From a virus: a DNA stretch of 54,783 bases. Positions within the stretch are counted from its first letter, which is position 1, and the number at the start of each line of letters is the position of its first letter. The position numbers and the translations under genes were made by a program. The stretch lies in the IMG/VR virus record IMGVR_UViG_3300025086_000031, positions 1 through 54,783 of that record; one strand, 5' to 3'. The notes under the pieces were generated by a model. The model searched no databases. It was not told the DNA's origin and saw only the letters and a program-made list of their open reading frames with translations. Shown here in pieces: positions 11,046-51,503 of this stretch.

Positions 11046-11627
11046 ATGAAACCAATTAGAGATTATTATTTTGTTAAGGTTGAAAAAACCCATGAAGACA
11101 CTATTATTATAAATGATAAAGAGCTTTATATGGATACCAGCTTTGAAGATATGAAGCATGCTAGGCAGTATGGTATAGTTGTTGCAGTACCTACAACCCT
11201 ATCTTTTGGGTTGAAGATGGATATTAAAGAGGGGGATAAAGTATATTGTCACCACTTTTTAGCTAGCGAGGAGAGTAGAGTTAAATATCATGAAGAGGAA
11301 AATATATTTCAAATAAGGTGTGACGCTATATATGCTAGGGTTAGAAAGGGTAAGTTAAAGATGTTAAATCACTGGAATTTTGTAGAGCAGAAAAAAGAAG
11401 ATAAAGATAACTATATGAGTAAATCTGGAATATATTTAAAACCAGAAAGAGAAGATAAGGAATTGCATGGGTACATAAAGTACATGAATAAAGAAATGAA
11501 AGAATGGGGTGCAAAGGTTGGTGATGAAGTTGTTTTTTCAGAAAATTCAGAATACGACATGAAGATAGAAGGTGAAAAATTGCTTAGGATGAGAAATATT
11601 GATATCTTAGCAAAAATAGAAAGATGA
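11046..11627 (+). CDS. Tandem GroES-like (Cpn10) co-chaperonin
   Basis: 193 residues, twice the ~95 of GroES. The second half (about 108-193) matches Cpn10 well: a mobile-loop-like SGIYL (127-131), VGDEVVF, then KIEGEKLLRMRNIDILAKIE, equivalent to the GroES end 'DGEEYLIMREDDILAIIE'. The first half begins MKPIRDYYFVKVEK like GroES 'MKPLHDRVLVK', has a III tripeptide at 20-22 where GroES has its GroEL-binding loop, and ends GDKVY...FQIRCDAIYARV. So it is probably a fused double Cpn10 that would cap the host GroEL during capsid or fibre folding, as T4 gp31 does. No GroEL gene is present here. The position just before terminase and capsid genes fits a capsid-folding role. Confidence 0.72.
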   Translation: MKPIRDYYFVKVEKTHEDTIIINDKELYMDTSFEDMKHARQYGIVVAVPTTLSFGLKMDIKEGDKVYCHHFLASEESRVKYHEEENIFQIRCDAIYARVRKGKLKMLNHWNFVEQKKEDKDNYMSKSGIYLKPEREDKELHGYIKYMNKEMKEWGAKVGDEVVFSENSEYDMKIEGEKLLRMRNIDILAKIER

Positions 11628-32599: not shown

Positions 32600-35500
32600 A
32601 TGGCAGTAGTATATCAAAAAGATAAAAACGCTATTAGATTCGTTGCAGATTTCTACAAGAAGTTTAAGCCTAATCATAAGCTTACTCAGGTTGAGATTGA
32701 CTCGATCTTTGCCCAGTACGATGGTGATTATGAAACCATGGTTAAAGACATTTACGGTGCACTAACAGAATACACACCTAGTGATAGTGACATAACAAGT
32801 GTAATTAACCGTTACGCTTTAAAAAAAAAAGATTCGGCAAATGGTTTATTAGAATCGGCAACTGGAGAATCGGAGCAATTAGAAATAGACGAAAATAAAG
32901 AGGGTTTTACAGCTGAAGATGGAGCCTTTGTAACTGATCTTAATTTAAGTACAGACGAAGAAATACATAAAGGTTTAGAGGGTGCGAAAGCAGGCACTTC
33001 AGCAACTCTCAATTATAAAACTAAAGAGCCTAGAGTTTTAGAGGGTAGACAAGATTATCCTATACATGTTTATGCAGATGGCGGTTATCAGGGTGTATTG
33101 AAGCCTGGGGGTAAAATGAAAACCTCTCCAGCATCTAAAATAGTAGAAATTCCAACTGACAAATACTTTAAAGCACAAGATGGAGCCATAGTTCCTAATG
33201 AAGAAAATAATCAAGATGTGAGCATCGAGAATGAAGAAGATGTTTGGAATTATGATTATATACTAAAAACTTTCACTAAAAACGGATCTCCTGTAGATGC
33301 CTCACAAGTTCCTATTAATATTATGGGGGATCTAAAGATAGATATACAAAATCAACATGATCTTCAAAAAAGAGAAAAATCAAGAAATGATGCTGAGATT
33401 CAAGCAGGGTTAAAAAATGTAGAGTTTAACCAAAACTTTGAACAATTCTACGGACAAGAAGGTGACTTAAATTTCTACAAGGCAGCACAGCTATACGCTG
33501 AAAACCCTGAAAATTTTAATCTCCTATTAGAGAGTACAGAGGAGGGTCAATTTGTAGATTATGAGGGTATGCAAATACCTTTAACAACATCTATATCTGA
33601 AAGTGGGAAAGATTTAATATCCGCTGCTAATCCTGACACCAATACATTTTTCCATGAAGTGCCCGTAGGTGGAGGTTCTAATGAAGAAATTTTATCAGAA
33701 TACGGAATAGAGTCAGGTCTTGTTACGGGGGATGAAAATCAATCATTTCAATCTGTAGATGATGACGGTTTAACTCAGTATGAGACTATTTTAAACATGG
33801 ATAATCATATGGCTAGCTTATTAAATCAAAGGAGCGAACTTGTTGGTGGTAAACATGTATATAAAGAGGATAAGAAATCAAAGTTTTTAAGGCCAAAAGC
33901 TCTGTATGAAGAGGGTGTAGACCAAACAACGACACTTGGAAATATAAATTACAACACGCTTAGTGAGGATCAGAGATTTCAATATGAAAAATTAACAGAA
34001 CAGATAAATAATGTTAAAGGAGCTAAAGCTAAATTAAATGTACAATTATTAACATCTTCCAATAAACACGGTGTAAATGACGTAAAAACAGCTTATGGTG
34101 GATTAAAGACTCATGAGGATAGAGTATCTTTTTTTAATAGTAGTAGTGATCAAATAAACGATAAGGTAGATAGGTCTGAAAGTTATCAAATGAACTTAGT
34201 TGTAAGTGAGTTAAAAAATGAAATACAACAAGATTTAAGTGATGAATTTTCTGTTGACACAGAAGCTAAAGATCTTTTACAAAAATATCAAACCAATAAA
34301 GGGATAAAATTCAAAGGCCCTGAAGAAATGCTTGGAGATAAGGTTTTTATGAATCTTTATAGTGACTTTCAGAAGAGTAGACTTAACAAGATTAATATGA
34401 CTATTGCTGATATAGATTGGCAAAATGAAGAAACTTTTAAAACTCAAGTTAAGCTAAACGCTTCCTTAAAAAATATAAACAAACAACTTGAAAGGTTAGA
34501 GTTACAAAAGGAGAATGAGAAAATAGATGAGGATGAATATATTGAACAATCAACTAAATTAAATCAGCAAATATCTATTCTTAGAGAAAAAATGGAGGAG
34601 AATAGGGGAAAAAGAGGTTACGAGAGAGGTACGGAAATGTTTACAGAAACGGGAGAGAGGATAGAAGGACCTGTAGCTACAGAAGAAGATAAAATTATTC
34701 AACAGCAAATAACAAATAAAGAGGCAGAATTTATGCAAGCTTTAAGTCAGGCTGAGGATTATGGTGCGTTTGTTGATAAATTAATGAGAGCTCAAGATGG
34801 TTTATACTCTACTGAGTTAATGAATCAGGATATATGGAAGAATGAAAAAATGACTCTTCCTAGTGGTAAAGAGATGACTCTAGAGGAGATGTATAGTTTT
34901 ATACAGGCTCAATCTGGTGATACAGGTGCTCTTTGGAGTCTAGGTATTGGTGGTGGAGCAAAGGAGTTGAGAGAGCAATTTGACAGCGAAGCTGAAAGAA
35001 ATACTGGTGTTATTGGTTTAAGGCAACAGCTAAGAACTATAGATAAGTCAATCCCTATGATGATAGCTAAAAACTTTGGAGAGGGATCTAAGGAAGATGC
35101 TGTATTTATGATTGAGATGTTGAAAAATTTTAAAGGTAGGTATTATGAGAATCAAACTCAGTTAGTAGCTATGTCTAATGTATTAACATTCAATGTTGAT
35201 CCAGGAAAAGAATGGGGGGAGAAAACTGGAGCAGGATTATTTTTAAGACAAATGTCAGAGAGTTTTGGTCACGCTGTACATAAAAGGCATGTTCATAGCG
35301 AGGATGATATGATTAATTACTATGATGATATAGCTAATGCCTACGGAATAGAGTTAACAGACCAACAAAAGGTAGCTGGAGAAATAAGTTTAAATGACAT
35401 GGTGGCTCAAGGTGTGGGTACTACAGTTCCTATTATGATTGAAATGATTGCTACTATGCCTTTAGCTGGTGCTGGGTTAAAAACTCTTACCAAAGTGCCT

Positions 35501-38500
35501 TTGATTAAGAATGCTATGGTTGCTGCTAAAACTACAGATGTAGGTAAATTTTGGTGGAATTTTAGTGAGAATGTAGTTAGAGGTGCTGTAGCTTTTGAGA
35601 TGACATCAGGTGATCAGGCTACATGGAGAATGGGTGCTGCTGAGGGAGCTACAGAGCAAGTGATGAACTCTTTATTTAAAAGAACTCCTGTAACTAGATC
35701 TCTATTAACATTATATAGAAGTTTTGGAAAACCAGGTGTTAAAGTTGCTACCCTGCCTCCAAGAATCCTTGCGGGTGGTGGTGCTGAGCTTTTAGCGGAG
35801 TATTCAGGTGAGTTTGTTGAGAACTTAACTAATATGGGTTTTAACTGGGAAGAAGCTTTAATGGCTACTGTTGGTCAATCAAGAGACGAAAGGATAAATA
35901 AGTTAATGACTACAGCTATTATTTGTGTAGGTTTATCTACAGCTTTTACAACTTTAACAGCTAATAGCATAGAACAGAATTTTCAAGACATGCTAGATGG
36001 TGGTCAGTTAGGTCCTGAAGACACTAAATTAGTTCAAGACTTCTTAGGTGTTATGGATGAATATAAAAAATCACCACAAGGAGAACAATTAACATTATGG
36101 GGAGATGATGATTTTGACACTATGGTTGGAGAGACTCCAGATCACTTAAGTGGAGTAAATGGAGATGACGAAGGAGATACTCCTGGAGGTCCTACTATTC
36201 CTTTAGGGGAAGGTCCAGGTGGTTTACCTACTATTAAAGATGAGCGTGATGAAGATATTGGTATGCCAGCTTCTGGCGGTAGACAATTAACTCTTTTTGA
36301 AGACGAGTCAGTAAGGAGTTCTGCAGGAAATACAAGTTCGGTTAATCCTGGAAATAGATTATTTAATGACCCAAACCCAGAAACTTCACAAATAGCAAAA
36401 AATTATATAAATACTAATTCTCCTCAGATTGGAGTTCAACATTCAGATGCTACTCCAGTAACTGATATTAACGAAGAAAACTCTAAAAATATAGCTGATG
36501 CATATGAGGCTATGGAAAATAACCCTAACGATCCTAAAGTTCAGAAAGCTTACACAGCTCTAGCTAATGAAACACAAATGCAATATCAAGAATTAATAAA
36601 TGCTGGCTATACCATTGAAGTTTACAACGGTAAAGGAGAGCCTTATGCTAATAGTGACGAAATGATAAAAGATGTTAGGGATAATAAGCATTTGTATATA
36701 TTTGGAACAGAAACTGGTTTTGGTCAAGGTCAGATTACAGATCAAATGAGAGCAGAAAACCCCTTGCTTCAACCTACAGAATTTCAAGATGTTAACGGTA
36801 ATCCATTACTTGTTAATGATTTATTTAGAGCTGTTCATGATTTTTTTGGTCATACAGAGCTAGGTAATGGGTTTGGAATCAAAGGGGAGGAAAATGCTTG
36901 GCTTAATCACTCTAGAATGTTTAGTCATGACGCTAGAAGAGCTATGACAACAGAGACTAGAGGTCAAAACTCATGGGTTAATTTTAATCAAAAGTTAAGA
37001 AGAGAAGATGGGAGTATGCCTAAGAAGGGAGATCCTGATTATGTAAGACCTCAAGATAGACCTTTTGCAGACCAGAAAATAGGATTACTTCCTGATGAGT
37101 TTGTATTCCAACAACCATCAACGCCAAGTGTTACAGCTGACCCAGCGGTAGAAGTTACTCAAGATACTCCATTTAAGTATAATAGATCTAAAAAGGTATA
37201 CGAGGGAACTGTTAATAACAAACCATTTGTAATAGCTAAAAGATATGGTAAACAAGAATGGATAGAAGCTTTGTCTGGAGAAGTGTTAGGAAGAACTAAA
37301 AAAGAAGCTATAAAAACTTTAAAGTTAGCTATGGAAGGTCCTGTGGCTATGGATCTAATGGAGTCTACTGATCAAATAACAGAAGAGTTAGCTGGCATAA
37401 TAGATTTAATAAATGCTTCTACAAATGCTCATGATTCTGATGTTGATCCGAATACAAAATCTCCAGAAAATATAGAAAGTCTTGTAGATAGAACAATTAG
37501 AGGTATTGACTCAGAATTAGATAGAATAAATCGAAATAGAGGTAAGAACCTGTATATGGACGTAACTATGGGGTTAGGACCAGTGGCGTGGGAAGCCTTC
37601 TTAAAAGCTTTAAAAACAGGCTTAAAAGCGGGACAGAGTGTTTCCGTTGCTTTCAATAAAGCTGTAGAGTCTATAAAAGGATTAGATGAATTTAAGGAAG
37701 AAAGTATAGAATCTCTTAAGAAAAGGTTCTTATTTAATAATGATGGTGTTGTTAAGTTTGCTGAGGAAGCTATAATTAATAAAGTTACTGCACCTAAATT
37801 TCTTGAGGCTTTACAAGAGAAATATCCAGATCAGTATAACGAGATAGAAGCTAAAGAGATATATAAAATAGCTAAGTTAAGAGTTAATCCTAAAGTTGTT
37901 AGAAGTAATTATACTAGAAGTGAACTTAAACAAATAGATAACTTACAAAACAAAATAGATCAGCATAATAATGTTGACATGAAAAATGATCGTAGCTTAT
38001 CAGATCCTATGCAAATATTATTTGACGGAGGATTTGTAGTATTAAAGAATGGTAAACCTGTAATAAAAACTCTTCCTTTTAATTTTAATGGAGCTCCTAT
38101 ATTCCAAGGATTAAATGAGCAACAAAAAATAGAATTAGCTTCAGATTTACTTATACAGGATTTTAATACAAACAGCTCTAAAATAGATTTAGAAAGAGCT
38201 ACAGGTTGGTATAGTAAAACAAAAAACTTAATACAACAGAAGTTTGGTGGAAATGCACCAATATTCTTCGAGCTACTAGGCGTTACATCTCCACAAGCAC
38301 CACCTCAAGTTAACTTTAGAAAATCTACTGAAGTTTTAAGATCTTATTCAGAGGGTAAGTTTGATGAATCTTTAGAGATATACGATAATAAAGTTAAAGC
38401 TATAATGGCTCAATATGATCAAGGTGTTTTTGGTGTGGGTAAAAAGGCTGTAATAAAAGCTAAAGAACTTATAAAGCAAGCCTCTTCTGATCAAGATGTT

Positions 38501-41500
38501 GTGGCCGCTATAAAAAAGAAAAACGGAAAGTCATTCGGTCTTCCAGTAGTTACCTCAGGTATTGTTAGAGTTTTATATGGTAATTGGCTATCTAATAATC
38601 CAGCTAATAAAACAGGACAGTTTTACAATAACTTGTCTTTAAGAGATAGAAGTGCTACTATTGATGTTTGGGCTGCTAGGAATATGAGAAGAATAGTATA
38701 TTCTCAAGGAGGTTTTGTACCATTTAGAAGAAGACAATCTCAAGAAACAACAGTAGGTAATAAAGATTTTTCTTTTGCACAAAGTGTATATGCTGTAGCT
38801 GCTAAGAAGCTAAACTTAAACCCTGACGACCTACAAGCTGCTATGTGGTTTATAGAAAAACAAATATATGACGAATCTGGATTTAGTGGAACTGATAGAA
38901 CTGGAGCAGCTAAAGATCAAGCAACCATGGAAAACGCTGTAAATTCTGCTAAGATAACAGATAGAGTTATGGTGGGTGCTAGCACCTTTATAGGTAATAC
39001 AAGTCCAGAACAGAAAAACAGAATATATAGTGCTACAGCTAGAGCTATACAAAAAGCTTTAGAAAGAAATGCTACTGACGAAGAGATTGCCGCTGTGATA
39101 GCAGAGACTATGCAGGGTTCTGTAAGAATGGATCAAGCACTTCAAAACTTAGACGCTGTAGTTTCTTTATTAGGTGCTATGGGTAGACCATATCAGTCGG
39201 AAGGTATATATATGAATCAAACAGAAGATACTATAAATTTAGAAATGTTAGTTGATGCTGGAACAGATTTATCTCCTTTATTTGATGAGCTATTAAATAC
39301 AGCTATTAACAATGAGCAAGAGTCTGTGTTTGCATCTAAAGTGACAACAAAACAAGATCCTAACGCTAGACCTTTTAGGAGAATAGAGTTTGACTCTCCC
39401 ATGACACTTACTGATGCTAGAATGTTTGCTAATGAGCATTTTGGGCCTAATGGTGTAGAGGGATTAACTCTTAATTACAATCAAGAAGGTGAGGTTACGG
39501 GTATGTCAATGCAATTTGTTCCTGAATATTTAATGGAACCTATGGGTGAGGGTTTAACGATGGAAAATATAAAAGAATATGAGTCAAGATGGGAGGATGG
39601 TGCAAATAAAGCTATAAGAGAAATACAAGAAAAATACGGTGAAGATATTTTTAATACCGTAGAAAATGGATATATTAACACAAAAGTTTTTACAAATGGG
39701 GAATACGAAACAACTACAAGACAAGAAAAGTCGTTTGAAACAGACATCAATAGAGAGCTTGCCAGAAGGCAAAGAGCTATTAATAGCGGGGACAACGCCC
39801 AGGACATCTCTGATCTCAGAACAGGAGATGAATATTCTAGCGGAAGCGTTCAGCGTTTTCAAATCTTAACAGATTTTGCAGACAAATTAGATCAGATATA
39901 TAAAGATTTAGGTGGTAATGCTTATGCAGATCCATTTATGTCAATTCCTATTATTAGAGCCGCCCTCAAAACAGCTTCTATTACCCTTAGAGCCACTTCT
40001 AGTGTAGCTAAAGCTGTAGATGCAGCTATAGATTACTTAAATAGAGCTCAAGCTGATGGGGATAAATTTATTCCTAATCAAGAAGCTGAGATAAGAGAAT
40101 TATTCAAAAATTTCCTATCAACACAAGAAGGGTTGTTTAACCCTAAAGATCCTGGAATGTCTGGAGAAACTGAACTGACAGAAGAAGAAGCATCTCAACT
40201 TGAAGAGCAAGAGGCTCGTTTACAGGAAATGAGAGAAAGACGAGTTCTTGAGATGATTGACGCTTTAAATTCTGATATAGACCTTAAAGATTGGACGGAT
40301 GCAGACTACTCAGAAACTTTAGAAGAGTTACAGAAAGATCAAGATGCAGCATTCTCTAGGGGTAAAGATAATTTCTTTGGAAGGTTAGCGGATTTTAGAA
40401 GGTCTTTAGACAATATGTTTGTTAAATTAAAAGAGCAAACAGTAGATACTAAATTTAGAATAAAAAGATCTATTAGAAATATAGGTAAAGATTTAAATCT
40501 TAGTGAGACAGCTTCTAATGCACTCGCATCTATAACTCTATGGTTAACGGTTCCAGGTACAGCTAAAGAACTTATAGATCAAGCTAATAAAAAAATATGG
40601 GGAGCTTTATCTTCTGCTCAAATAAAACTGGTAGGTCAACTATCTACACTTGAAAGAATAATAGAGCTTGATAATTTATCTGACGCTCAAAAATCAGCAG
40701 CTGATGCTATTGTTAAGAACTTAAATATTTTATCTAAAAAACTTGGTAAAGCTAAAACAAAAGAGGAAAAAGCCGCTATAAAAGAACAAATAAAACAATC
40801 TGAAGCTCAAATAGATAACATATATAAAGATAACTCCAGTGTTAGTGTCAAGAAAAACGAGGATGGCTCAGGTTATTATTTAGAATATGTAACGAAAGAT
40901 AAGAGTGGAAAAGATCTTTTTATTAAAATGAAACCTGGTATAGCCTCAATAACTAATCCAACTACTAAGAGTAAGGTTTGGCCTTGGAGGATGAAGCATC
41001 CAGAGGTTAAAAATCCTAAAGGAGAAGGTTATGTCATGATGAATAAAGAGATTGCTGAAGGTATGATTAACAGCATGAAGTTGAAGGAAGGTGATGGGTT
41101 TAAAGTTATTAGAGAGACTACAGATAAATTATTTGAAGAATATCGTAATGAGTTAAAAAGAAATTTTGAAGCGGGGTTAATAGATGAGGCAACTTATAAT
41201 GAACTTAAAGATCTTAAATATAACCCTAGAAAGTTTGTTGATCACGTAATATTTACGGAGAGAAACTTGAATGAACAGAGGAAATCAGGTCGTGCTAATA
41301 AGGGTGATCATTTAGAGTCTCCTTTACAAATGTTAAAACAGGGTAGTGATCAGGTTCTTTTTATGGATCCAGTTAAGTTATTACAAAACACATTAGCTAT
41401 CGGAGCTAAATTAAGAGCTGAGAATGAGGTTAGAAGAGGTATATATGATATAATATCTCAAGCTACAAAGAAGGGGTTTGAGTACGTTAATGGAACAAAT

Positions 41501-44077
41501 ATGGCTGTAGAGGAAATAGGATATATACTAAAAGACGGAGAACAGGTGAGACCTGGATATGTGGAAATGAGCTATAATGAAGGTGGTAAAAAGATTAGGT
41601 TTGCCATGAAAAATGCTTCTTATGAAAGTTTATTTGCTCATCCTAGAGAAATGGTTCCTGCTGGGGATCAACTTAACATGATAACTGGACCCTTAAAATG
41701 GGGTGGTAGTATGCTTAAAACATTTGCTACTGGTGTTGGTGCACCATTTTTCTTTATTGCTAACGTGTTTTATGATTTTGCTCAGCAAGTTATGTTTACA
41801 GACACCTATAACGGTAATTGGTACGGATCAACTCTAGCAACAAAATTCGGAATAGCAGCTTCAGATTGGTTATCTGTAATGAAGGATGCAGCAACAAATG
41901 GACCACTTAGCCAGGAATATAAGATGCTTGGAGGTTCTTTAGAATTTATGACTAGATACGGATTAATGGATTACTCAACAGATTTATTGGTAAATGAAAA
42001 GGAGTTGTCAGAAAGAGTTAAAGAGATAATGTCTAATCCTGAAAACAAACTCAATGAAGATCAGGCTAGAGATCAAGCTATTCGAGAACAAGTGAGTAGA
42101 ATGTATGGTGATAACGCTCCTTACACAAACCCTAATACAAAAAGTGGATGGGAGATAATTAAAAGAGTTGTGTCATCTATGAACTCAACATCTGAAATGA
42201 CGGGTAGATTAGCTAATACTCGTAGATGGACTAAAAAATATATACAAGAGTATAAAGATAAAAACGATGGTCAAGAACCTACGGGTGAGGATCTTATACA
42301 AATCAAGAAAAGAGCTGTGGCTAATGCGGTTGATTACGCTAACTTTAATAATGGGGGGAAATCTATTAAGTTTTTTGATTCTTTAGGGTTTGCTTACCTT
42401 AATGCTGCATCACAAGTTCTTGATAAGAGTGTTAGGTATGTTAGTGAAAATCCAGCTCAATTCGCTTGGGATGCGGCACAATGGGCTGTAACATTTGGAG
42501 CTGGTATAATGGCTTACAACTTGCAGTATTTTGATATCTTAGATGAGGACGAAGAAGAAAGATTACAGAATAATTTAAATGATGCGATAGAGAGTGGGGA
42601 TAATAAATTAGAGAAAAGGATAAGAGAAAAGCTGTACAAAAACAGAAGATACTTTATAAATCATATTAGCGATTATGATATGGAGAATTATCACTGTATA
42701 ATATTACCTGGTAAAGTTACAGATATAGTGAGTCAAGAGAAAGAAATAGCTTTACAAGATCAATTAAAGATTGCTGAAAGCATGCCTATAGGGGAGGATA
42801 GAGATAAAAGAATAGCTGAAATTAAAGAGCAGTTATCTGATAATAGAGTTGTAACTCCTAGATATTTAAAGATACCTAGCGATGCTAGAATAAATGCTTT
42901 TAGAGTTGGTGTTGAAGATCTTACGTTTAAGCATATTACTGGATCTAACTACAGGGTTCAATCTGAAGACGCTTTATCATTTACTCCGTGGGGTAGAGGT
43001 GATGAGAAAAATTCTTACGGTAGAATATTACAGAAAGCTATACCAGCTGGTGGTGGTAATCCTAGGGATTTAGTAGCTTCAAATCCTCTCCTTAATGTAA
43101 TATTAAAAACAACTCAAAATTATGACGCTTTTTACAATAGACCTATATGGAAAGATTATAATGAAGGTGCTAATGGGTATACTCAGTATGAAGGTTCTTT
43201 TGATAAATATGAAGACAAGTGGCTAAGAGATTTATCTAAGAGACTTGATACAATGGGGTTGTGGGAAGGAGGTTTTCCTATTACAACTACAAAATCAGTT
43301 TTAAGTTCTTTATTTACCAATATGGATAGAAACCCAGTTAACGCTATAGTTAACCATAGTTATGTAGCTGCTACTGGAGGTCTTAATGAGTATGAGAAAG
43401 AACAATATGGAAATCAAATGAATATGTTTTTAAATGATGTTTTAGGCCCAGTAACAAAAAGGTATGTTGGAGATATTGATCTTCTTAGAAATCAAAAATC
43501 TAAATTACAAGCTGAAGCTGATCATATGAGAGAGACAGAAGATAGATTCCAAGCTAACTTAAGGCTTTCTTATCAAGCTGTTATAAACAAGAATGGAATA
43601 AGAAAAGATCCTGACACAGGAAATTGGATAGATGCTGACGGTAAGGTTATGAGACTTGAGGATTCAGATGGAGATGGATTATATGATGCTAAAGACTTTT
43701 TCTTATCTGAATCAGACAGAGTAATAAATCAAGTGGAGGATGAGCTTAGAGGTAGATTGGGTGAAGATGAGATTATAGATCAAAACTTATGGAACGTGGA
43801 AGAACAGAAAAAGCGAATACATAGAATGGTTGTTATGGATTGGAAGTATGGTGAAAACAGTTCTGATATTCAAAGGGCTATTATAGATTTTAAACAAGGT
43901 AATAAAATGACAGCAGCCTTTATGATATATCAAATAAGAAAAGAGTCAATGGGTGACTCGCAACAATATAGCTCTTTAATGAAGACTATTAGAGAAGAAA
44001 ATATAATTTCAGATCCTCAAGTTATGTATATGATGAAACAATTTGCAATAGCTGATGCTGAAAAAATTACAGAGTAA
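32600..44077 (+). CDS. Giant polyvalent internal virion protein, 3825 aa
   Basis: A single uninterrupted frame of 11.5 kb. Parts visible in order: a helical N-terminus; hydrophobic helices at about 935-985 and 1098-1125; a domain at about 1250-1505 with VHDFFGHTELGNGF and RRAMTTETRGQNSWVNF, recurring in phage polyvalent proteins; a helical domain at about 1865-2095 (FFELLGVTSPQAPPQ, ATIDVWAARNMRR, LQAAMWFIEKQ), also seen in such proteins; coiled coils; and an LPD38-like region at about 3020-3320 (GPLKWGGSMLKTFATG; SEMTGRLANTRRW; FDSLGFAYLNAASQV). Such proteins are packaged in the head and ejected with the DNA to form a channel or counter host defences. An A10 run lies near the 5' end. No RNA polymerase motif was seen. 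Confidence 0.75.
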   Translation: MAVVYQKDKNAIRFVADFYKKFKPNHKLTQVEIDSIFAQYDGDYETMVKDIYGALTEYTPSDSDITSVINRYALKKKDSANGLLESATGESEQLEIDENKEGFTAEDGAFVTDLNLSTDEEIHKGLEGAKAGTSATLNYKTKEPRVLEGRQDYPIHVYADGGYQGVLKPGGKMKTSPASKIVEIPTDKYFKAQDGAIVPNEENNQDVSIENEEDVWNYDYILKTFTKNGSPVDASQVPINIMGDLKIDIQNQHDLQKREKSRNDAEIQAGLKNVEFNQNFEQFYGQEGDLNFYKAAQLYAENPENFNLLLESTEEGQFVDYEGMQIPLTTSISESGKDLISAANPDTNTFFHEVPVGGGSNEEILSEYGIESGLVTGDENQSFQSVDDDGLTQYETILNMDNHMASLLNQRSELVGGKHVYKEDKKSKFLRPKALYEEGVDQTTTLGNINYNTLSEDQRFQYEKLTEQINNVKGAKAKLNVQLLTSSNKHGVNDVKTAYGGLKTHEDRVSFFNSSSDQINDKVDRSESYQMNLVVSELKNEIQQDLSDEFSVDTEAKDLLQKYQTNKGIKFKGPEEMLGDKVFMNLYSDFQKSRLNKINMTIADIDWQNEETFKTQVKLNASLKNINKQLERLELQKENEKIDEDEYIEQSTKLNQQISILREKMEENRGKRGYERGTEMFTETGERIEGPVATEEDKIIQQQITNKEAEFMQALSQAEDYGAFVDKLMRAQDGLYSTELMNQDIWKNEKMTLPSGKEMTLEEMYSFIQAQSGDTGALWSLGIGGGAKELREQFDSEAERNTGVIGLRQQLRTIDKSIPMMIAKNFGEGSKEDAVFMIEMLKNFKGRYYENQTQLVAMSNVLTFNVDPGKEWGEKTGAGLFLRQMSESFGHAVHKRHVHSEDDMINYYDDIANAYGIELTDQQKVAGEISLNDMVAQGVGTTVPIMIEMIATMPLAGAGLKTLTKVPLIKNAMVAAKTTDVGKFWWNFSENVVRGAVAFEMTSGDQATWRMGAAEGATEQVMNSLFKRTPVTRSLLTLYRSFGKPGVKVATLPPRILAGGGAELLAEYSGEFVENLTNMGFNWEEALMATVGQSRDERINKLMTTAIICVGLSTAFTTLTANSIEQNFQDMLDGGQLGPEDTKLVQDFLGVMDEYKKSPQGEQLTLWGDDDFDTMVGETPDHLSGVNGDDEGDTPGGPTIPLGEGPGGLPTIKDERDEDIGMPASGGRQLTLFEDESVRSSAGNTSSVNPGNRLFNDPNPETSQIAKNYINTNSPQIGVQHSDATPVTDINEENSKNIADAYEAMENNPNDPKVQKAYTALANETQMQYQELINAGYTIEVYNGKGEPYANSDEMIKDVRDNKHLYIFGTETGFGQGQITDQMRAENPLLQPTEFQDVNGNPLLVNDLFRAVHDFFGHTELGNGFGIKGEENAWLNHSRMFSHDARRAMTTETRGQNSWVNFNQKLRREDGSMPKKGDPDYVRPQDRPFADQKIGLLPDEFVFQQPSTPSVTADPAVEVTQDTPFKYNRSKKVYEGTVNNKPFVIAKRYGKQEWIEALSGEVLGRTKKEAIKTLKLAMEGPVAMDLMESTDQITEELAGIIDLINASTNAHDSDVDPNTKSPENIESLVDRTIRGIDSELDRINRNRGKNLYMDVTMGLGPVAWEAFLKALKTGLKAGQSVSVAFNKAVESIKGLDEFKEESIESLKKRFLFNNDGVVKFAEEAIINKVTAPKFLEALQEKYPDQYNEIEAKEIYKIAKLRVNPKVVRSNYTRSELKQIDNLQNKIDQHNNVDMKNDRSLSDPMQILFDGGFVVLKNGKPVIKTLPFNFNGAPIFQGLNEQQKIELASDLLIQDFNTNSSKIDLERATGWYSKTKNLIQQKFGGNAPIFFELLGVTSPQAPPQVNFRKSTEVLRSYSEGKFDESLEIYDNKVKAIMAQYDQGVFGVGKKAVIKAKELIKQASSDQDVVAAIKKKNGKSFGLPVVTSGIVRVLYGNWLSNNPANKTGQFYNNLSLRDRSATIDVWAARNMRRIVYSQGGFVPFRRRQSQETTVGNKDFSFAQSVYAVAAKKLNLNPDDLQAAMWFIEKQIYDESGFSGTDRTGAAKDQATMENAVNSAKITDRVMVGASTFIGNTSPEQKNRIYSATARAIQKALERNATDEEIAAVIAETMQGSVRMDQALQNLDAVVSLLGAMGRPYQSEGIYMNQTEDTINLEMLVDAGTDLSPLFDELLNTAINNEQESVFASKVTTKQDPNARPFRRIEFDSPMTLTDARMFANEHFGPNGVEGLTLNYNQEGEVTGMSMQFVPEYLMEPMGEGLTMENIKEYESRWEDGANKAIREIQEKYGEDIFNTVENGYINTKVFTNGEYETTTRQEKSFETDINRELARRQRAINSGDNAQDISDLRTGDEYSSGSVQRFQILTDFADKLDQIYKDLGGNAYADPFMSIPIIRAALKTASITLRATSSVAKAVDAAIDYLNRAQADGDKFIPNQEAEIRELFKNFLSTQEGLFNPKDPGMSGETELTEEEASQLEEQEARLQEMRERRVLEMIDALNSDIDLKDWTDADYSETLEELQKDQDAAFSRGKDNFFGRLADFRRSLDNMFVKLKEQTVDTKFRIKRSIRNIGKDLNLSETASNALASITLWLTVPGTAKELIDQANKKIWGALSSAQIKLVGQLSTLERIIELDNLSDAQKSAADAIVKNLNILSKKLGKAKTKEEKAAIKEQIKQSEAQIDNIYKDNSSVSVKKNEDGSGYYLEYVTKDKSGKDLFIKMKPGIASITNPTTKSKVWPWRMKHPEVKNPKGEGYVMMNKEIAEGMINSMKLKEGDGFKVIRETTDKLFEEYRNELKRNFEAGLIDEATYNELKDLKYNPRKFVDHVIFTERNLNEQRKSGRANKGDHLESPLQMLKQGSDQVLFMDPVKLLQNTLAIGAKLRAENEVRRGIYDIISQATKKGFEYVNGTNMAVEEIGYILKDGEQVRPGYVEMSYNEGGKKIRFAMKNASYESLFAHPREMVPAGDQLNMITGPLKWGGSMLKTFATGVGAPFFFIANVFYDFAQQVMFTDTYNGNWYGSTLATKFGIAASDWLSVMKDAATNGPLSQEYKMLGGSLEFMTRYGLMDYSTDLLVNEKELSERVKEIMSNPENKLNEDQARDQAIREQVSRMYGDNAPYTNPNTKSGWEIIKRVVSSMNSTSEMTGRLANTRRWTKKYIQEYKDKNDGQEPTGEDLIQIKKRAVANAVDYANFNNGGKSIKFFDSLGFAYLNAASQVLDKSVRYVSENPAQFAWDAAQWAVTFGAGIMAYNLQYFDILDEDEEERLQNNLNDAIESGDNKLEKRIREKLYKNRRYFINHISDYDMENYHCIILPGKVTDIVSQEKEIALQDQLKIAESMPIGEDRDKRIAEIKEQLSDNRVVTPRYLKIPSDARINAFRVGVEDLTFKHITGSNYRVQSEDALSFTPWGRGDEKNSYGRILQKAIPAGGGNPRDLVASNPLLNVILKTTQNYDAFYNRPIWKDYNEGANGYTQYEGSFDKYEDKWLRDLSKRLDTMGLWEGGFPITTTKSVLSSLFTNMDRNPVNAIVNHSYVAATGGLNEYEKEQYGNQMNMFLNDVLGPVTKRYVGDIDLLRNQKSKLQAEADHMRETEDRFQANLRLSYQAVINKNGIRKDPDTGNWIDADGKVMRLEDSDGDGLYDAKDFFLSESDRVINQVEDELRGRLGEDEIIDQNLWNVEEQKKRIHRMVVMDWKYGENSSDIQRAIIDFKQGNKMTAAFMIYQIRKESMGDSQQYSSLMKTIREENIISDPQVMYMMKQFAIADAEKITE

Positions 44078-44113: not shown

Positions 44114-45187
44114 ATGAAAAAGGACATAAGTAAAATACTTTATATAATAATGATGATAGTGGTATTTGGTATATCCACTGCTTTTAGTCAAGGAGACTTT
44201 TTTAAGTATTCCACTTTCTACACTTCAATGACTATGAACACTCCTTTTGTTGAGAGGGGTGACTATGTAGCTGCAGATAAAGGCTATGAGGATGTAACTC
44301 AAGTCCATCCATACGATTATAATTTAACTCTCGGCTTGAGAAAAATAGCACGATTTGATTATGAATACAAAGTTAAAACATGGTATTATGGAACTGAAAA
44401 AGCTGTTGCAGATAATGTTACTATTGGTAATAGCGTTGGTTGGGAGTATCTACTTAATTATTCATTTATACGTAATCGTGGTGATAAATATACTGAGCAA
44501 AATTTCTGGCTTAGATACCTTGGAGATAAATGTGTAACAAAAGTTCAGTATAAGGATAATCAGAGAGTTAATTTAAGATATAACTCATTCGATACAAGAT
44601 TTAGGATTAATAAGGGAAATTGGGATTTTACTATTGGTGGAGTATTTCGTATGCACCCAGTATATGGTGTCACTCCAATAGAAGATTTCTGGATTCCTGG
44701 AGAGTCTACTTTTCAACAGTTAGCAGAGGATTTTGGATATGCTCCAGAACAATGGGTTCAGGGGTTTTATGTTAATCAAAACTGGTACGATGTTAGTGGT
44801 GGAGACTCCGTTTTGGTCGCTACCTCGAATGATGAGTTCTTCAACCACTACTTCGGTGATGCAGTGGAAACATATAATGAGAGAGAGTTAGAAAAACTTG
44901 GAATGCAGAAAGAATTAAGTGCTGTTATAGGAATAGCATACTATAAATATACCCCTAAAATGTGGATGCACGCTTGGGTTAATTGCATGCCTGTTCACTA
45001 CGGAATGGATGAGTATTCATTTGAATATGGTAAAGAAGATTGGGATAATATGGAGTGGGATGCTGGTATGGTATTTGGATCTAGAATAACCAAGAACTTG
45101 GGAATGTTTGTGGAGGGAACTCATATGCGTTATTGGATGAAACCTGTATATGAAGTAAAGTTTGGTTTTAACTATTTAATATTTTAA
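44114..45187 (+). CDS. Predicted outer-membrane beta-barrel protein
   Basis: 357 residues. The signal peptide (MKKDISKILYIIMMIVVFGI, then STAFS) has Gln26 at the predicted +1, following the Bacteroidota Q-rule. The mature part shows alternating amphipathic, aromatic-rich strands (FDYEYKVKTWYYG; FDTRFRINKGNWDFTIGGVF; GMFVEGTHMRYWM) and ends YEVKFGFNYLIF, with the C-terminal Phe typical of barrels handled by the BAM complex. It is expected in the host outer membrane. It heads the block with a lipoprotein and a secreted repeat protein. Possible roles are receptor masking, superinfection exclusion or lysis; none is proven. Confidence 0.62.
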   Translation: MKKDISKILYIIMMIVVFGISTAFSQGDFFKYSTFYTSMTMNTPFVERGDYVAADKGYEDVTQVHPYDYNLTLGLRKIARFDYEYKVKTWYYGTEKAVADNVTIGNSVGWEYLLNYSFIRNRGDKYTEQNFWLRYLGDKCVTKVQYKDNQRVNLRYNSFDTRFRINKGNWDFTIGGVFRMHPVYGVTPIEDFWIPGESTFQQLAEDFGYAPEQWVQGFYVNQNWYDVSGGDSVLVATSNDEFFNHYFGDAVETYNERELEKLGMQKELSAVIGIAYYKYTPKMWMHAWVNCMPVHYGMDEYSFEYGKEDWDNMEWDAGMVFGSRITKNLGMFVEGTHMRYWMKPVYEVKFGFNYLIF

Positions 45188-45189
45188 TT

Positions 45190-45381
45190 ATGAAAAAACT
45201 ATTATTCTTATTGGTACTATGTTCAGGGTGCTCAATGTTATTTAATCCTGATAATTACAATCCAAACCCCACCCCAAAACCTATCGTTGAGGAGCCAAAA
45301 GATTCAATTAGGGTTGATACTATAAGATTAACAAACGGTATTGATCATATTATTATGTTAGATACAGTAAAAATAAAATAG
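45190..45381 (+). CDS. Small predicted lipoprotein, 63 aa
   Basis: The N-terminus MKKLLFLLVLCSGC is a lipoprotein signal peptide with the acceptor Cys14 after SG. The mature chain is short, Pro/Asn-rich (NPDNYNPNPTPKP), then has DSIRVDTIRL and MLDTVKIK, echoing the 'DTI' words of the repeat protein that follows. It starts 2 nt after the barrel gene and stops 2 nt before the next. It may partner the barrel or the repeat protein, or act as an outer-membrane spanin subunit; sequence does not decide. Confidence 0.65.
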   Translation: MKKLLFLLVLCSGCSMLFNPDNYNPNPTPKPIVEEPKDSIRVDTIRLTNGIDHIIMLDTVKIK

Positions 45382-45383
45382 AT

Positions 45384-46301
45384 ATGAAAAAACTATTAAT
45401 AATATTATTTGCTTTCATTAGCTCTTTAACTTACTCTCAGCAATATGATTTTGAAGCTATATGTTTAGCTTGTGCTGAAGCAGAAGGTTTTTATTGTGGT
45501 GATGATCCCACAAACTGGACTCAATATTCTCCTAATGGTTGTGTTCAAAACTCTTGGATAAACGATGGATGGGTGGACTGTGTTGATGCTACTGATGAAG
45601 GAGAAGATGTTGTTCCAACATCCCCTGATGAATGTGCTCCTCCCCCACCACAATGTGACACTATTTATGTGGATGTTCCAGTAATAGAATATGTATATGA
45701 AACTGACACAGTTGAAGTTGAGGTTCCTTTTTACATTTATGAAACAATCATACAGCTAGATACAATAGTCGAGACGGAATATATAACTCAGATTGTTATA
45801 GATACTATTATTGAAACACAGCTAGACACAATTTACAACACAGAATATATAACTCAAATAGTAATTGACACTGTGATTCAGGAGGTTGAGGTTTTTGTTC
45901 CTGAGTATATATATGTTACAGACACTGTATATGCGGAGGTGCTAGATACTATGTTTATAGATGTCATACAAGAAGTGGAGGTTGTTGTATATGATACTAT
46001 AGTTGAAACAGAAATTGAATATGTGGAGTTTTTTGTTACAGATACTATTGTTCAGTATGATACTATAGTAAACACAGAATACGTTGAAATATTTGTTATT
46101 GATACTGTAGTAGAATATATTGAGGTTGTAGAAATTGAATATATAGACTGTGACACTGGTTTACCTTGCGGATCTGGAATGGAAGAAATATTAGATAAAT
46201 CTATTAATACTGGATTGTTATACGATCTAAACGGGAAAGCTATAAGAAAAACAGAAGGAATATATATAAAAAATGGTAAAATTAAATATTTAATAAGATG
46301 A
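45384..46301 (+). CDS. Secreted repeat protein with T9SS-like C-terminal signal
   Basis: 305 residues. The signal peptide (MKKLLIILFAFISSLTYS) has Gln19 at +1. A cysteine-rich head (about 28-95) is followed by ~155 residues of acidic beta repeats built from DTI/DTV words (for example LDTIVETEYITQIVIDTIIE, 22-residue period), then a cysteine pair (CDTGLPC). The last ~30 residues (LLYDLNGKAI...GIYIKNGKIKYLIR) resemble the short C-terminal sorting signal of type IX secretion substrates ('YDL.GR.V....GIY.V.GKK...K'). It would therefore be displayed on, or released from, the host surface. The 3' end overlaps the next gene by 4 bases (ATGA). Its phage function is unknown. Confidence 0.65.
   Translation: MKKLLIILFAFISSLTYSQQYDFEAICLACAEAEGFYCGDDPTNWTQYSPNGCVQNSWINDGWVDCVDATDEGEDVVPTSPDECAPPPPQCDTIYVDVPVIEYVYETDTVEVEVPFYIYETIIQLDTIVETEYITQIVIDTIIETQLDTIYNTEYITQIVIDTVIQEVEVFVPEYIYVTDTVYAEVLDTMFIDVIQEVEVVVYDTIVETEIEYVEFFVTDTIVQYDTIVNTEYVEIFVIDTVVEYIEVVEIEYIDCDTGLPCGSGMEEILDKSINTGLLYDLNGKAIRKTEGIYIKNGKIKYLIR
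45753..45884 (+). repeat. Two tandem 66-bp coding repeats
   Basis: Units 45753-45818 and 45819-45884 encode 22 residues each, opening QLDTIVETEYITQIVIDT and QLDTIYNTEYITQIVIDT. Looser copies of the same unit occur further along (around YDTIVETE and YDTIVNTE). DNA divergence is mostly silent, so the protein pattern is kept. Confidence 0.75.
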
Positions 46302-46891
46302 AAATAAAAAAAGAATACATGGGCGGAGGAGTCAATAGAATGAATAAAAATATGTACGAAAAGGGAGGGTTATCTGAAGCTCAAAAGAAAATGGACAAAA
46401 ATAATAATAATGAAATAGACTCTGAAGATCTAGCTATGCTTAGAAACGCTGAAGAGGGAATGAAGATGAAGTACGCTTATGGAGGTAAAAATAAAATGAT
46501 GTATCAAGATGGGGGAATGAATAATATAAGCTCTATGTCATTGGAAGAGCTGCAAAAACTACTACAATCTCTTGAGCAACAACAACAATCTAGTGAAATG
46601 AAGGGTCGTATGCCATCACAAAGAGATATAGAAATGAGGGCTAGGAGTGAGGGTCGTATACCTCAAGGAACTCCAATGGAGGTTAGTGGTCAGGTTATGG
46701 ATACTCCAATAGGTCCAATGCATCATGGACCAACAAGTAGTGAGCTTCATCAACAAGCTGAGCAAGATGCGTCAGATAGAGAACTGCAGGTGCGGATTCA
46801 TGATATTCGAAAAGCTATAAAAAACTACGAACCAAATAAGGGAACGGGTGGAAATTACCAGAAAGGAGGAAGATTACCTAGATTTATGTAA
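46298..46891 (+). CDS. Small protein with GG motifs and an EF-hand-like loop
   Basis: 197 residues, overlapping the preceding gene by 4 bases. Contains several Y-x-x-G-G words (MYEKGGL, YAYGGK, YQDGGM, NYQKGGR) and, at residues 33-44, DKNNNNEIDSED, which fits the 12-residue EF-hand loop spacing (D, N, N, E, I, D, D). A Gln/Met-rich helical middle follows. Similar GG-motif proteins are frequent in marine phages. No named family. It may be virion-associated; calcium binding is inferred from spacing alone. Confidence 0.6.
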   Translation: MKIKKEYMGGGVNRMNKNMYEKGGLSEAQKKMDKNNNNEIDSEDLAMLRNAEEGMKMKYAYGGKNKMMYQDGGMNNISSMSLEELQKLLQSLEQQQQSSEMKGRMPSQRDIEMRARSEGRIPQGTPMEVSGQVMDTPIGPMHHGPTSSELHQQAEQDASDRELQVRIHDIRKAIKNYEPNKGTGGNYQKGGRLPRFM

Positions 46892-47104
46892 ATGAATATA
46901 TTTAAAGACGATAATAATTGGAATGAAAAGGCTATAATTGGTTTTGTAGCTTTTATAATAATGTGTATAATAATGATCGCTGACCTAGCAACTGGATGGT
47001 ATGGTTATGACCTAGTTATAAATGAGTTTGTATATGATTCGTTTGTTTGGGTTGTCCTTGGTTGTTTTGGTATCAGTGGCGTAGAAAAATTTGCTAAGAA
47101 ATGA
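46892..47104 (+). CDS. Two-TM small membrane protein, holin candidate
   Basis: 70 residues: a short charged N-terminus (NIFKDDNNWNEK), a first hydrophobic helix (AIIGFVAFIIMCIIMIADLA), a polar turn, a second helix (FVWVVLGCFGISGV) and a basic end. This is the profile of a small class II holin, though other inner-membrane roles are possible. It starts directly after the preceding stop and overlaps the next gene by 4 bases (ATGA). A more convincing holin lies at 51105 on the other strand. Confidence 0.55.
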   Translation: MNIFKDDNNWNEKAIIGFVAFIIMCIIMIADLATGWYGYDLVINEFVYDSFVWVVLGCFGISGVEKFAKK

Positions 47105-47412
47105 GTTTGTATGCTAACATAAATAAGAGAAAAAAAGCTGGAACCAGTAGGTCTAAAAAAGACTCTACTATAAGTGATAAGGCTTATTCTGATATGAAAA
47201 AGGGTTTTCCTAAAGGGAGAATGGGAATGAAGATTAATAAGTATAATAAAGGTGGTAAGATGGAGGGGTTGACAGATCGTCAAATGGAAACATTGGAAAA
47301 ACATAAGGAACATCATACCAAAAAACATATGGATTTAATGATAAAACTTATGAAAGAAGGTAAAACATTTACTGAGGCTCATAAAGTAGCTATGGATAAG
47401 GTGGGAAAATAA
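47101..47412 (+). CDS. Conserved small basic phage protein, 103 aa
   Basis: The N-terminus MSLYANINKRKKAGTSRSKK is an opening I associate with small basic proteins of many marine phages. It has KYNKGGK in the middle and a helical His/Lys-rich C-terminus (LTDRQMETLEKHKEHHTKKH ending TFTEAHKVAMDKVGK), also recurrent in phages. No catalytic motif. It sits beside two other Lys/Arg-rich genes, so nucleic-acid or capsid association is plausible. Function unknown. Confidence 0.65.
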   Translation: MSLYANINKRKKAGTSRSKKDSTISDKAYSDMKKGFPKGRMGMKINKYNKGGKMEGLTDRQMETLEKHKEHHTKKHMDLMIKLMKEGKTFTEAHKVAMDKVGK

Positions 47413-47413
47413 T

Positions 47414-47716
47414 ATGGCCAAGTTAAATAAAAGAAAGAAGACAGCAGCTTGGACCAGAAAAGAAGGGAAAAATCCTAGTGGAGGATTAAATAAAAAGGGT
47501 AGAGACTCTTATAAAAGAGAAAACCCTGGCAGTAAATTAAAAGCTCCTGTTACAGGGAAGGTTAAAAAGGGTAGTAAAGCTGCCAAGAGACGTAAGTCTT
47601 TTTGTGCTAGAATGGGTGGAATGAAGGGGCCTATGAAAGACAGTAAAGGTAGACCAACAAGGAAAGCTTTAGCACTTAGAAAATGGAAATGTAGAGTTAA
47701 TAAAAAAAAGAAATAA
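47414..47716 (+). CDS. DUF6321-type basic phage protein
   Basis: 100 residues, about a third Lys/Arg. It matches a widespread phage family (DUF6321): AAWTRKEGKNPSGGLNKKGR, then SYKRENPGSKLKAPVT, GSKAAKRRKSFCARMGGMKG and RPTRKALALRKWKC. The function is not established; its strong positive charge and conserved Trp, Cys and Gly suggest DNA or RNA binding, perhaps in the packaged head. Starts 1 nt after the previous gene. Confidence 0.75.
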   Translation: MAKLNKRKKTAAWTRKEGKNPSGGLNKKGRDSYKRENPGSKLKAPVTGKVKKGSKAAKRRKSFCARMGGMKGPMKDSKGRPTRKALALRKWKCRVNKKKK

Positions 47717-47718
47717 TC

Positions 47719-48000
47719 ATGAAAGAAATATCAGAAGATTCAAAATTTCAAGTAAGCCTAAAAACATTAGGTGGAATATCTATGTTAATAGCTACATTAG
47801 TTGGTATGTGGTTTACGCTACAAGCTGATATAGATGAAGCCAAATTACTTCCTGAGCCTCCTAAACCAGAGGTTACTCAAATGGAGTTCAAAATGAAAGA
47901 TGAATATATAAGAGCTTCAATTCTAAAAACAGAAGAGGATGTTAAGGAAATAAAAGATGACATTAAATATCTTAGAGATAAGATGGATAACATGAAGTAA
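47719..48000 (+). CDS. Single-TM coiled-coil protein, spanin-like candidate
   Basis: 93 residues: a cytoplasmic-type start, one hydrophobic helix (LGGISMLIATLVGMWFTLQA, about 17-36), a Pro-rich hinge (LLPEPPKPEV) and a charged coiled coil (TEEDVKEIKDDIKYLRDKMD). This is the shape of an inner-membrane spanin (Rz-like), with the small lipoprotein at 45190 as a possible partner. Similar proteins occur beside basic small genes in marine phages with no proven role. Confidence 0.5.
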   Translation: MKEISEDSKFQVSLKTLGGISMLIATLVGMWFTLQADIDEAKLLPEPPKPEVTQMEFKMKDEYIRASILKTEEDVKEIKDDIKYLRDKMDNMK

Positions 48001-48001
48001 T

Positions 48002-48394
48002 ATGAAATATTTAGACTTAAAATTATTAGTAGTATTTATATTAATCCTTATCATAGGATCTAAAGCTACGGGACAAGAGTTTATTAATCAAGATAATTTT
48101 AACCAGAAAATAGCTAAAGATATAGTGGCTGTAGAATTTTGGGTTGAATGGAACTCTTCTAATGAATTTGTTGATCTTTCAAATTTAAATGACTGCTCAA
48201 AGTATAGGATTGACATAGCTGAATATCCTGATCTTCAAGCTAAATACGAAGTAACTTGTATACCTACTGTTATTATATTTGAGAGTGGAGAGGAGAAAGA
48301 AAGATTTAAAGCTAATATAATGTTTGAACTTGAAGCTGATAAAAAAGAAGTGCAAAAAAGCATTGATCAAATCATGATCGCAAAATTCAATTAA
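48002..48394 (+). CDS. Exported thioredoxin-like protein lacking the CXXC motif
   Basis: 130 residues. The signal peptide ends at about SKATG with Gln25 at +1. The mature part follows the thioredoxin fold: VAVEFWVEWNSSN (43-54) aligns with the 'VDFWAxWCxxC' strand and active site, with both cysteines replaced (N51 and N54), and CIPTVIIFESGEE (86-98) holds the cis-proline (Pro88). It therefore cannot do normal dithiol exchange; it may bind a protein or act as a chaperone in the periplasm. Located with small membrane and nuclease genes before the lysis gene. Confidence 0.68.
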   Translation: MKYLDLKLLVVFILILIIGSKATGQEFINQDNFNQKIAKDIVAVEFWVEWNSSNEFVDLSNLNDCSKYRIDIAEYPDLQAKYEVTCIPTVIIFESGEEKERFKANIMFELEADKKEVQKSIDQIMIAKFN

Positions 48395-50180: not shown

Positions 50181-50678
50181 ATGGAACTTGAGGTAGTAAG
50201 GTTTTCTAGTGAGTCTGATTCTACGAATGGGATTCTATTTGACTCTAGCAATAAACTAGATGGTAGAAAATTCTTATGTTACACTCTAGAAGATGAACAG
50301 AGAGACAAGAAGGTTAAAGGGGAAACTCGTATACCAGCGGGATCTTATAAAATTAAGGTTCGGAAAGTTGGTGGATTCCATGCAAGATATTCTAAAAAGT
50401 TTGGTAAAATGCATCGTGGCATGCTTCATGTCACCAATGTTCCTGGTTTTGATTATATACTCATTCATTGTGGTAATACTGATGAGCACACGTCTGGGTG
50501 TCTACTTGTTGGGGACTCGCAGGAAAACAACCAAATCAAGAAGGACGGTTTTATAGGTAAATCTACTCAATCTTATAAGAGGGTATATGATTATATAATG
50601 AAGGCTATTGAGTGTGATGATAGTGTTACAATAACATATATAGATTTTGATTCACCATCCACACCTATTAGTTGTTAA
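50181..50678 (+). CDS. DUF5675 protein, L,D-transpeptidase-like lysis enzyme
   Basis: 165 residues. DUF5675 hallmarks: TRIPAGSYKIKVRK (about 49-62), MHRGMLHVTNVPGFDYILIH (77-96) and CGNTDEHTSGCLLVG (97-111), with H96 and C107 placed like the His/Cys pair of L,D-transpeptidases. Phage members are thought to act on peptidoglycan and are probable endolysins; no direct proof is known to me. Last plus-strand gene before the terminator at 50777. No signal peptide, so it would need a holin for release. Confidence 0.72.
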   Translation: MELEVVRFSSESDSTNGILFDSSNKLDGRKFLCYTLEDEQRDKKVKGETRIPAGSYKIKVRKVGGFHARYSKKFGKMHRGMLHVTNVPGFDYILIHCGNTDEHTSGCLLVGDSQENNQIKKDGFIGKSTQSYKRVYDYIMKAIECDDSVTITYIDFDSPSTPISC

Positions 50679-51104: not shown

Positions 51105-51503
51105 TTATTTACTTTTATTATTGTTTTTATTACTTTTTATTTTCTCGATTGATCTACCAGCGAAGTACGCTGAGTATACTACAAGTAGGAGCTGGGTGTA
51201 AATTGGACCGTACATTGGATTCATTTTAAACTCCCCTACATTACCGTCAAAGAATGACATAACTACCAGCATAATAGTTAAAAAAGCTAGAGTTAGAGGC
51301 CTAATATTAGCTGGTAACCATCCCGCTTTAGCGTCAGCCTCCCATCTTCTAGTAACTTGCTCTTGAGCGTTCATCTGAGACTTAGCTATAAGCTCTTTCA
51401 TCCTCAATTTTAAGGACATCTTTTCCTCTTCTGTTGTTACACACTCATCTATTATAGTTGATGCGTTTCCTATTAAACTTTTAAATATGTCTCCTAGTAT
51501 CAT
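51105..51503 (-). CDS. GTA-type three-TM holin
   Basis: 132 residues. A helical N-terminus (EEEKMSLKLRMKELIAKSQM) leads to the family signature TRRWEADAKAGWLPANIRPL, then hydrophobic segments (TLAFLTIMLVVMSFF; YTQLLLVVYSAYFAG) and GRSIEKIK. This matches the 'Holin of 3TMs' family first named from gene-transfer agents. It should form inner-membrane lesions releasing the endolysin. It overlaps the upstream nuclease gene by 23 bases and sits opposite the plus-strand lysis gene across the terminator. Confidence 0.8.
   Translation of the reverse strand: MILGDIFKSLIGNASTIIDECVTTEEEKMSLKLRMKELIAKSQMNAQEQVTRRWEADAKAGWLPANIRPLTLAFLTIMLVVMSFFDGNVGEFKMNPMYGPIYTQLLLVVYSAYFAGRSIEKIKSNKNNNKSK

Follow-up and report, generated by a model that had tools for sequence, protein, structure and literature searches.

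A predicted outer-membrane barrel and an exported protein with an LDL-receptor class A-like head form a conserved gene pair near phage lysis genes

In the type IX secretion system (T9SS), gene pairs encoding a substrate and its cognate barrel are a known arrangement (PMC12618676). Phages have also been reported to carry T9SS cargo, including the endoglucanase, GH39, and PA14 proteins of Cryophage (PMC7468147) and cargo of the crAss-like cluster 2 (PMC6949934). Phage outer-membrane exclusion proteins, including T5 Llp, are likewise on record (PMC9586334), and Bacteroidetes phages were reported to use unimolecular spanins (PMC12596118). In the open-licence literature, we found no report of the cassette described here, of an LDL-receptor class A (LDLa) domain in phages, or of a phage barrel-cargo pair, and nothing pertinent on outer-membrane exclusion proteins of Bacteroidota phages.

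We analyzed a virus record of 54,783 bases (the window, meaning this whole stretch of DNA), in which the genes for a predicted outer-membrane barrel, a putative lipoprotein, and a 305-amino-acid (aa) exported protein follow one another on the plus strand at 44114-45187, 45190-45381, and 45384-46301, respectively. The coordinates, the strand, and the 2-nt spacing between neighbors proved exact. The original prediction read the three genes as a unit for remodelling the host surface. Searches of Pfam, NCBIfam, and PHROGs gave no meaningful match for any of the three products. All three genes showed purifying selection, with dN/dS values of approximately 0.05 for the barrel, 0.08 to 0.19 for the 305-aa protein, and 0.11 for the lipoprotein. 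An export rule, i.e., a hydrophobic stretch ending in A/S/G before Gln, was matched by 107 of 123 barrels and by 101 of 118 relatives of the 305-aa protein (the LDLa proteins), compared with 5 of 980 other neighboring ORFs. Taken together, this enrichment and the purifying selection indicate that the genes and their export signals are more than chance, and the prediction that the third gene encodes an exported protein is supported at this level.

Scans of viral contigs returned 94, 227, and 99 relatives, which gave 122 distinct loci after de-duplication by the barrel end; the sample sets behind these loci overlap, and the loci are not independent of one another. An LDLa protein was encoded 3′ of the barrel in all 118 loci that continued for more than 90 bp past it, within 10 bp in 90 of them, so that the gene order, which the original prediction had proposed to check, proved to be conserved. 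Among the records with the window's capsid protein, the pair was present in all nine contigs longer than 50 kb. The small Pro-rich putative lipoprotein (63 aa), on the other hand, was an occasional insert found in only 6 of the 118 loci, which places it outside the conserved unit. The conserved unit is the duo of the barrel and the LDLa protein, and the trio was rejected as such a unit. A lipoprotein nevertheless remains a plausible reading of the middle gene, as an invariant "GCS.LFN" follows its hydrophobic stretch, with Leu at -4 rather than at -3 of the lipobox. Inserts between the barrel and the LDLa gene occurred in 28 of the 118 loci. Small basic proteins of the "MAFKM.GFSAF" type were a repeated insert at this site (L012, L091, L094, L105, L114, L115, L121, L135, L136, L145, L155, L160, and L161), and a secreted 170-aa protein ("MRKLIFFLFISLISAGQEVFPWN...") was seen there in L089 and L153. 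The wide conservation had been overlooked in the original prediction, as had the LDLa head and the neighboring lysis cassette.

The barrel protein comprises 357 aa, with a signal peptide at residues ~1-25 and a C-terminal Phe. Its AlphaFold2 model, built on an alignment of 49 relatives, is a closed antiparallel barrel of about 12 β-strands (mean pLDDT, 73.7; pTM, 0.70) that is weak at residues 82-105 and has one predicted outer loop of 83 residues (182-264). The best structural matches of the model (Foldseek and VIA-align) were all outer-membrane barrels, with Z scores of 13.9 for EstA, 13.2 for KdgM and NanC, 12.6 for NalP, and 10.8 for FapF, and what such a model has in common with them is the fold, not the function. 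The great majority of relatives ended in Phe or Tyr. The model, the structural matches, the signal peptide, and the terminal Phe thus bear out, as a prediction, the earlier assignment to the outer-membrane barrels, and there is good support for the earlier picture, in which such a barrel is accompanied by a protein that is exported and probably lies at the cell surface. We considered and rejected a PorP/SprF identity, since none of 49 barrel members matched PF11751 at an E value of ≤10, and hhalign gave a probability of 0.7% against four PorP proteins. The PDB contained no sequence relative of the barrel, and neither the barrel nor the LDLa protein had a relative among isolated phages (50,697 phage records). 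No cellular relative of the barrel was found in a GTDB scan or in 299 Flavobacteriales genomes, the latter search being without its own positive control. Relatives were confined to metagenomic viral contigs, and the nearest viral model, A0A516LKJ4, had 28% identity. Overall, the predicted outer loops were about as conserved as the strands; this favors a constant partner of the barrel over the idea that the barrel is itself an arms-race surface. In one record (G338, the record of L015), a frameshift/TGA splits the barrel gene, while the secreted protein is intact.

The 305-aa protein is a candidate surface protein that consists of a signal peptide, an LDLa-like head (residues 27-84; 45462-45635, plus strand), a Y/D/T/V stalk, and a T9SS-like tail. 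PF00057, the LDLa family, was matched by 40 of 46 head-protein members at E values of ≤10, with the best at 4e-4, and by the window's own protein at 1.6, under the gathering cutoff. In a PDB profile search with the head, LDLR-type modules made up most of the matches, including all the best ones. AlphaFold2 of the whole protein was informative in the head and tail only; the head formed a block with a pLDDT of 84-91, and all 18 rows of its structural alignment (Z ≥ 2) spanned the head and were nearly all LDLR-type modules, with Z up to 3.3 over 43 residues and CD320 among the neighbors. The phage heads have in common with PF00057 much of the cysteine pattern, the W..NDG..DC.D.SDE Ca2+ motif with its acidic ligand positions (D61, D65, D71, and E72) invariant, and the predicted fold. 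They differ from it in being phage-borne, in having an extra N-terminal CxxC, and in having Asn at the fourth LDLa cysteine in nearly all members, so that the canonical three-disulfide, six-cysteine pattern is not reproduced; six cysteines are conserved in all, but they are shifted. The low-complexity "DT" stalk (residues 92-253; 45657-46142, plus strand) gave no confident structure, and its length varied from ~10 to 160 residues across relatives. Heads of this type also occurred in one MAG each of Crocinitomicaceae (in a secreted protein of 1138 aa with a T9SS-type domain at its end), Flavobacteriales, and Neomarinimicrobiota (with canonical cysteines), and were rare in Flavobacteriales (1 of 299 genomes). 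A Neomarinimicrobiota secreted protein at L164:7218-9344 contains several repeats of the LDLa kind, among them the CGDD variant seen in the phages.

The conserved C-terminal tail ("YDLNGKAIRKTEGIYIKNGKIKYLIR"; 46167-46298, plus strand) is 26-45 residues long and carries "YDLxG..V ... GIYI ... K" motifs that resemble those of the T9SS type A sorting domain, without its PNP strand. None of the 46 head-protein members, nor the tested member of a second family described below, reached the cutoffs of TIGR04183 or of the Pfam C-terminal domain (CTD; PF18962), and we therefore rejected a full type A domain (~70 residues with a PNP motif). A CTD profile made from one Crocinitomicaceae (flavobacterial) genome with 54 TIGR04183 matches hit 93 of 118 phage tails compared with 41 of 1456 control tails, and hhalign gave probabilities of 15-29% against the T9SS CTD. 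In the PDB, the tail profile matched best the C terminus of the secreted arabinanase 4kca ("YDLSGRLVTTPLQKGIYIRNGK"; E = 0.016), and the host-genome search with the tail gave an E value of 0.74. The type IX-like resemblance noted in the original prediction is thus real and weak, and falls short of a curated match. A previous study placed the targeting signal of HBP35 in its last 22 residues and found the last-strand lysine to be conserved (PMC11285876). By its sequence, the tail is T9SS-like, and it may act as a T9SS signal.

A distant barrel without an LDLa head, found in a capsid relative, led to a second barrel subfamily, in which the order is barrel, coiled-coil protein, thioredoxin (Trx)-like protein, and head protein, followed in many loci by an M15 endolysin and a holin. 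The secreted protein of this subfamily (173-185 aa) has an unrelated "EISWEI...YGDGWNGAYL" head and a tail of the same kind, "YYNLxGQ.V....GYYIATDG..SRLIY". A tail profile built from the second subfamily alone matched 117 of 118 LDLa-protein tails (best E, 3.9e-5), compared with 29 of 1456 control C termini (best E, 0.37). The use of one tail on unrelated heads, each beside a barrel, resembles a sorting or anchoring signal. The "YGDGWNG" head was found in 67 of 120 Flavobacteriales genomes; most of the proteins that carry it are large, and one of them has an apparent type B T9SS signal at its C terminus. On the barrel tree, phage type changed 3 times (shuffled mean, 26) and LDLa loop type 24 times (shuffled mean, 39), suggesting that exchange or remodelling of the head was much more frequent than a change of phage type by the barrel. 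We preferred this tree-based count because the two halves of the short, 64-residue head correlated only at 0.36 in their distances, which makes distance correlation alone unsafe. The pattern fits a head that serves as an exchanged specificity module, although the 24 changes may be an overcount if loop indels recurred or loop lengths were homoplasious.

The duo heads a cassette that encodes a protein with two transmembrane (TM) segments, a TM-coiled-coil protein, an exported Trx-like protein, an M15 endolysin, and a holin. A 28.9-kb contig with overlapping ends, which is apparently complete, has the order barrel, LDLa protein, 2-TM protein, coiled-coil protein, Trx-like protein, endolysin, and holin, and the M15 endolysin and holin of the small-phage cassette matched phrog_894 (E = 1e-28) and phrog_3427 (E = 1e-21), respectively. 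The window has, on the plus strand, a 70-aa protein with two hydrophobic segments (46892-47104; 61 of 122 loci), holin-like only in appearance, a 93-aa TM-coiled-coil protein (47719-48000; 96 of 122 loci), inner-spanin-like only in topology, and an exported thioredoxin-fold protein without CXXC (48002-48394; 102 of 122 loci), possibly a chaperone instead of a redox enzyme. Further along lie a DUF5675 protein (50181-50678, plus strand), which is replaced by the M15 endolysin in other loci, and a protein resembling a GTA-type holin (phrog_3427; 51105-51503, minus strand), which was placed by sequence reading and a relative of which closes the cassette in small phages. Clustering of the neighbors over the 122 loci gave 38 with the M15 endolysin, 38 with DUF5675, and 42 with the holin-like protein. 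The late region also encodes small low-complexity proteins rich in Gly and Lys (46298-46891, 47101-47412, and 47414-47716).

This cassette was found in at least two unrelated phage lineages. The window-type portal, phrog_6547, was detected in 24 of the 35 records tested but was absent from all 10 contigs of 25-32 kb, one of which (the 28.9-kb type) had the portal phrog_33693 and the terminase Terminase_3C. Resemblances of the window's portal and terminase to their counterparts in phages of Flavobacterium, Cellulophaga, Tenacibaculum, and Maribacter suggest that the host is a flavobacterium; the terminase also matches Bacteroides phages. The annotations examined for the flavophages related by portal or terminase name no outer-membrane gene (for Panino, over 1-49999). 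Directly 5′ of the barrel, the window encodes a 3825-aa protein (32600-44077, plus strand), the positional counterpart of which is annotated as structural in Flavobacterium elemo phages. In its position and sequence style, 11046-11627 resembles the co-chaperonin GroES that is annotated before the terminase in the same phages. The portal ORFs of four records (G013, G021, G023, and G026; records of L036, L060, L150, and L203) had one to three in-frame TAA/TAG/TGA codons in otherwise strong profile matches, which could reflect recoding, an intron, or an assembly error.

Starting from what is established at the level of sequence, i.e., the export signals, the pairing, the modularity of head and tail, and the linkage to lysis genes, we tentatively read the pair, with somewhat less than even confidence, as a late phage "outer-membrane display unit," in which a barrel that acts as an anchor or shuttle and a head-swappable surface protein remodel the cell surface and lower adsorption. 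In such a scheme, both proteins would be exported by Sec, a step supported by their sequences. The barrel would then enter the outer membrane of the host, which the head protein would cross by virtue of its tail, via the host type IX machinery or a pathway mimicking it, with the always-adjacent barrel possibly serving as its dedicated shuttle or anchor, as PorP/SprF barrels do for the substrates encoded beside them. The stalk may raise a Ca2+-dependent LDLa head above the cell surface. In the least certain step, the surface of the infected cell would be changed at lysis, most likely in that receptors become occupied or masked, which would prevent superinfection by sister phages and re-adsorption of progeny to the cell or its debris. 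Receptor masking or exclusion, already raised in the original prediction, may be what the pair does, and the place of the pair after the structural block recalls that of T5 llp, which is adjacent to a receptor-binding gene (PMC9586334). A more specific version, in which phages of at least two unrelated lineages bring their own type IX-style display, with a barrel, a cognate head-swappable substrate, and a minimal signal, all tied genetically to the lysis cassette, and coat every infected cell with an LDLa or YGDGWNG head just before lysis, seems unlikely to us. Judged by sequence, the short, sub-threshold tail, the lack of resemblance of the barrel to PorP/SprF, and barrel loops too conserved for a fast arms race argue against display, and exclusion alone leaves the linked coiled-coil and Trx-like genes and the lysis-cassette position unexplained.

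Blocking of adsorption is the likeliest role of the duo, and the main rival, in line with an unusual lysis role that the original prediction listed as an alternative, is an outer-membrane lysis step, in which the barrel, with or without the head protein, would be the outer partner of a spanin-like complex, the TM-coiled-coil protein the inner partner, and the thioredoxin-fold protein a periplasmic link or chaperone, with rupture following endolysin action. We consider this doubtful, if a serious contender: in complete small phages, the pair heads a lysis cassette with an endolysin and a holin, most loci with the barrel also have the coiled-coil and Trx-like genes, which are linked to it again in the second subfamily, often with an endolysin and a holin, and a canonical o-spanin or u-spanin was not seen in the cassette. 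However, the best spanin-profile match, that of the lipoprotein to a PHROG, was at chance level (E = 0.4), and a stalked, head-swapping LDLa protein would have no obvious job in membrane fusion; we also know of no spanin with a porin-sized barrel. The two genes could instead be neighbors without functional dependence, the host PorV pathway alone exporting and attaching the head protein while the barrel acts separately. Type A CTD proteins do use the general PorV shuttle (PMC12618676), and the inserts described above part the pair in some loci, but the obligate co-occurrence in the 118 loci, repeated in the second subfamily with another head and another gene order, makes this quite improbable. 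The presence of the small-molecule porins NanC and KdgM among the fold matches, and the diverse ligands bound by LDLa modules such as that of CD320, would suit a barrel that admits nutrients during infection beside a head protein that captures a ligand; such auxiliary metabolism is very unlikely, given that the barrel has no sequence similarity to any transporter family and that genes for nutrient uptake would be an odd find so late, in a lysis cassette. Least credible of all is that both proteins are parts of the virion, another alternative of the original prediction. The pair does come after the window's last structural gene, but nearly all members have Sec signal peptides, and one and the same cassette occurs in phages with unrelated portals and terminases.

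If the display reading is true, the more than 120 distinct viral loci represent an envelope module that is widespread among marine Bacteroidota phages and has not yet been named. The cassette makes testable what Bacteroidota phages do with the outer membrane at lysis, and whether they re-coat infected cells with the help of type IX components that they hijack or carry themselves. The tail common to unrelated heads offers a short candidate for a sorting signal, suited to direct testing with a reporter.

Compared with known systems, the duo resembles a PorP/SprF barrel with its type B CTD substrate in Flavobacterium johnsoniae, in that a barrel gene is paired with that of a Sec-exported protein that has, or in the duo would have, a C-terminal signal and an extracellular head. 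Unlike that pair, however, it is phage-borne and without sequence similarity, its barrel gene lies upstream and not downstream, and its tail is type A-like and much shorter. The T9SS cargo of other phages consists of Bacteroidota phage proteins with a T9SS-type C-terminal signal, which the tail here resembles; that cargo has recognized sorting domains and is not known to us to be paired with a barrel, whereas the tail here is sub-threshold and its protein is always paired with a barrel and encoded beside lysis genes. The superinfection-exclusion proteins (lambda Lom, T1-type Cor, and T5 Llp) are also products of phage outer-membrane or lipoprotein genes beside tail or receptor-binding genes, a position that the lambda Lom gene likewise has, but their folds and sizes differ, and to our knowledge none of this type has an exported, stalked, head-swapping partner. 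With spanins (Rz/Rz1 and u-spanins), the duo has in common its site in a lysis cassette, a TM-coiled-coil partner, and an exported, predicted outer-membrane component, and it differs from them in matching no spanin profile and in offering a predicted barrel in place of a lipoprotein.
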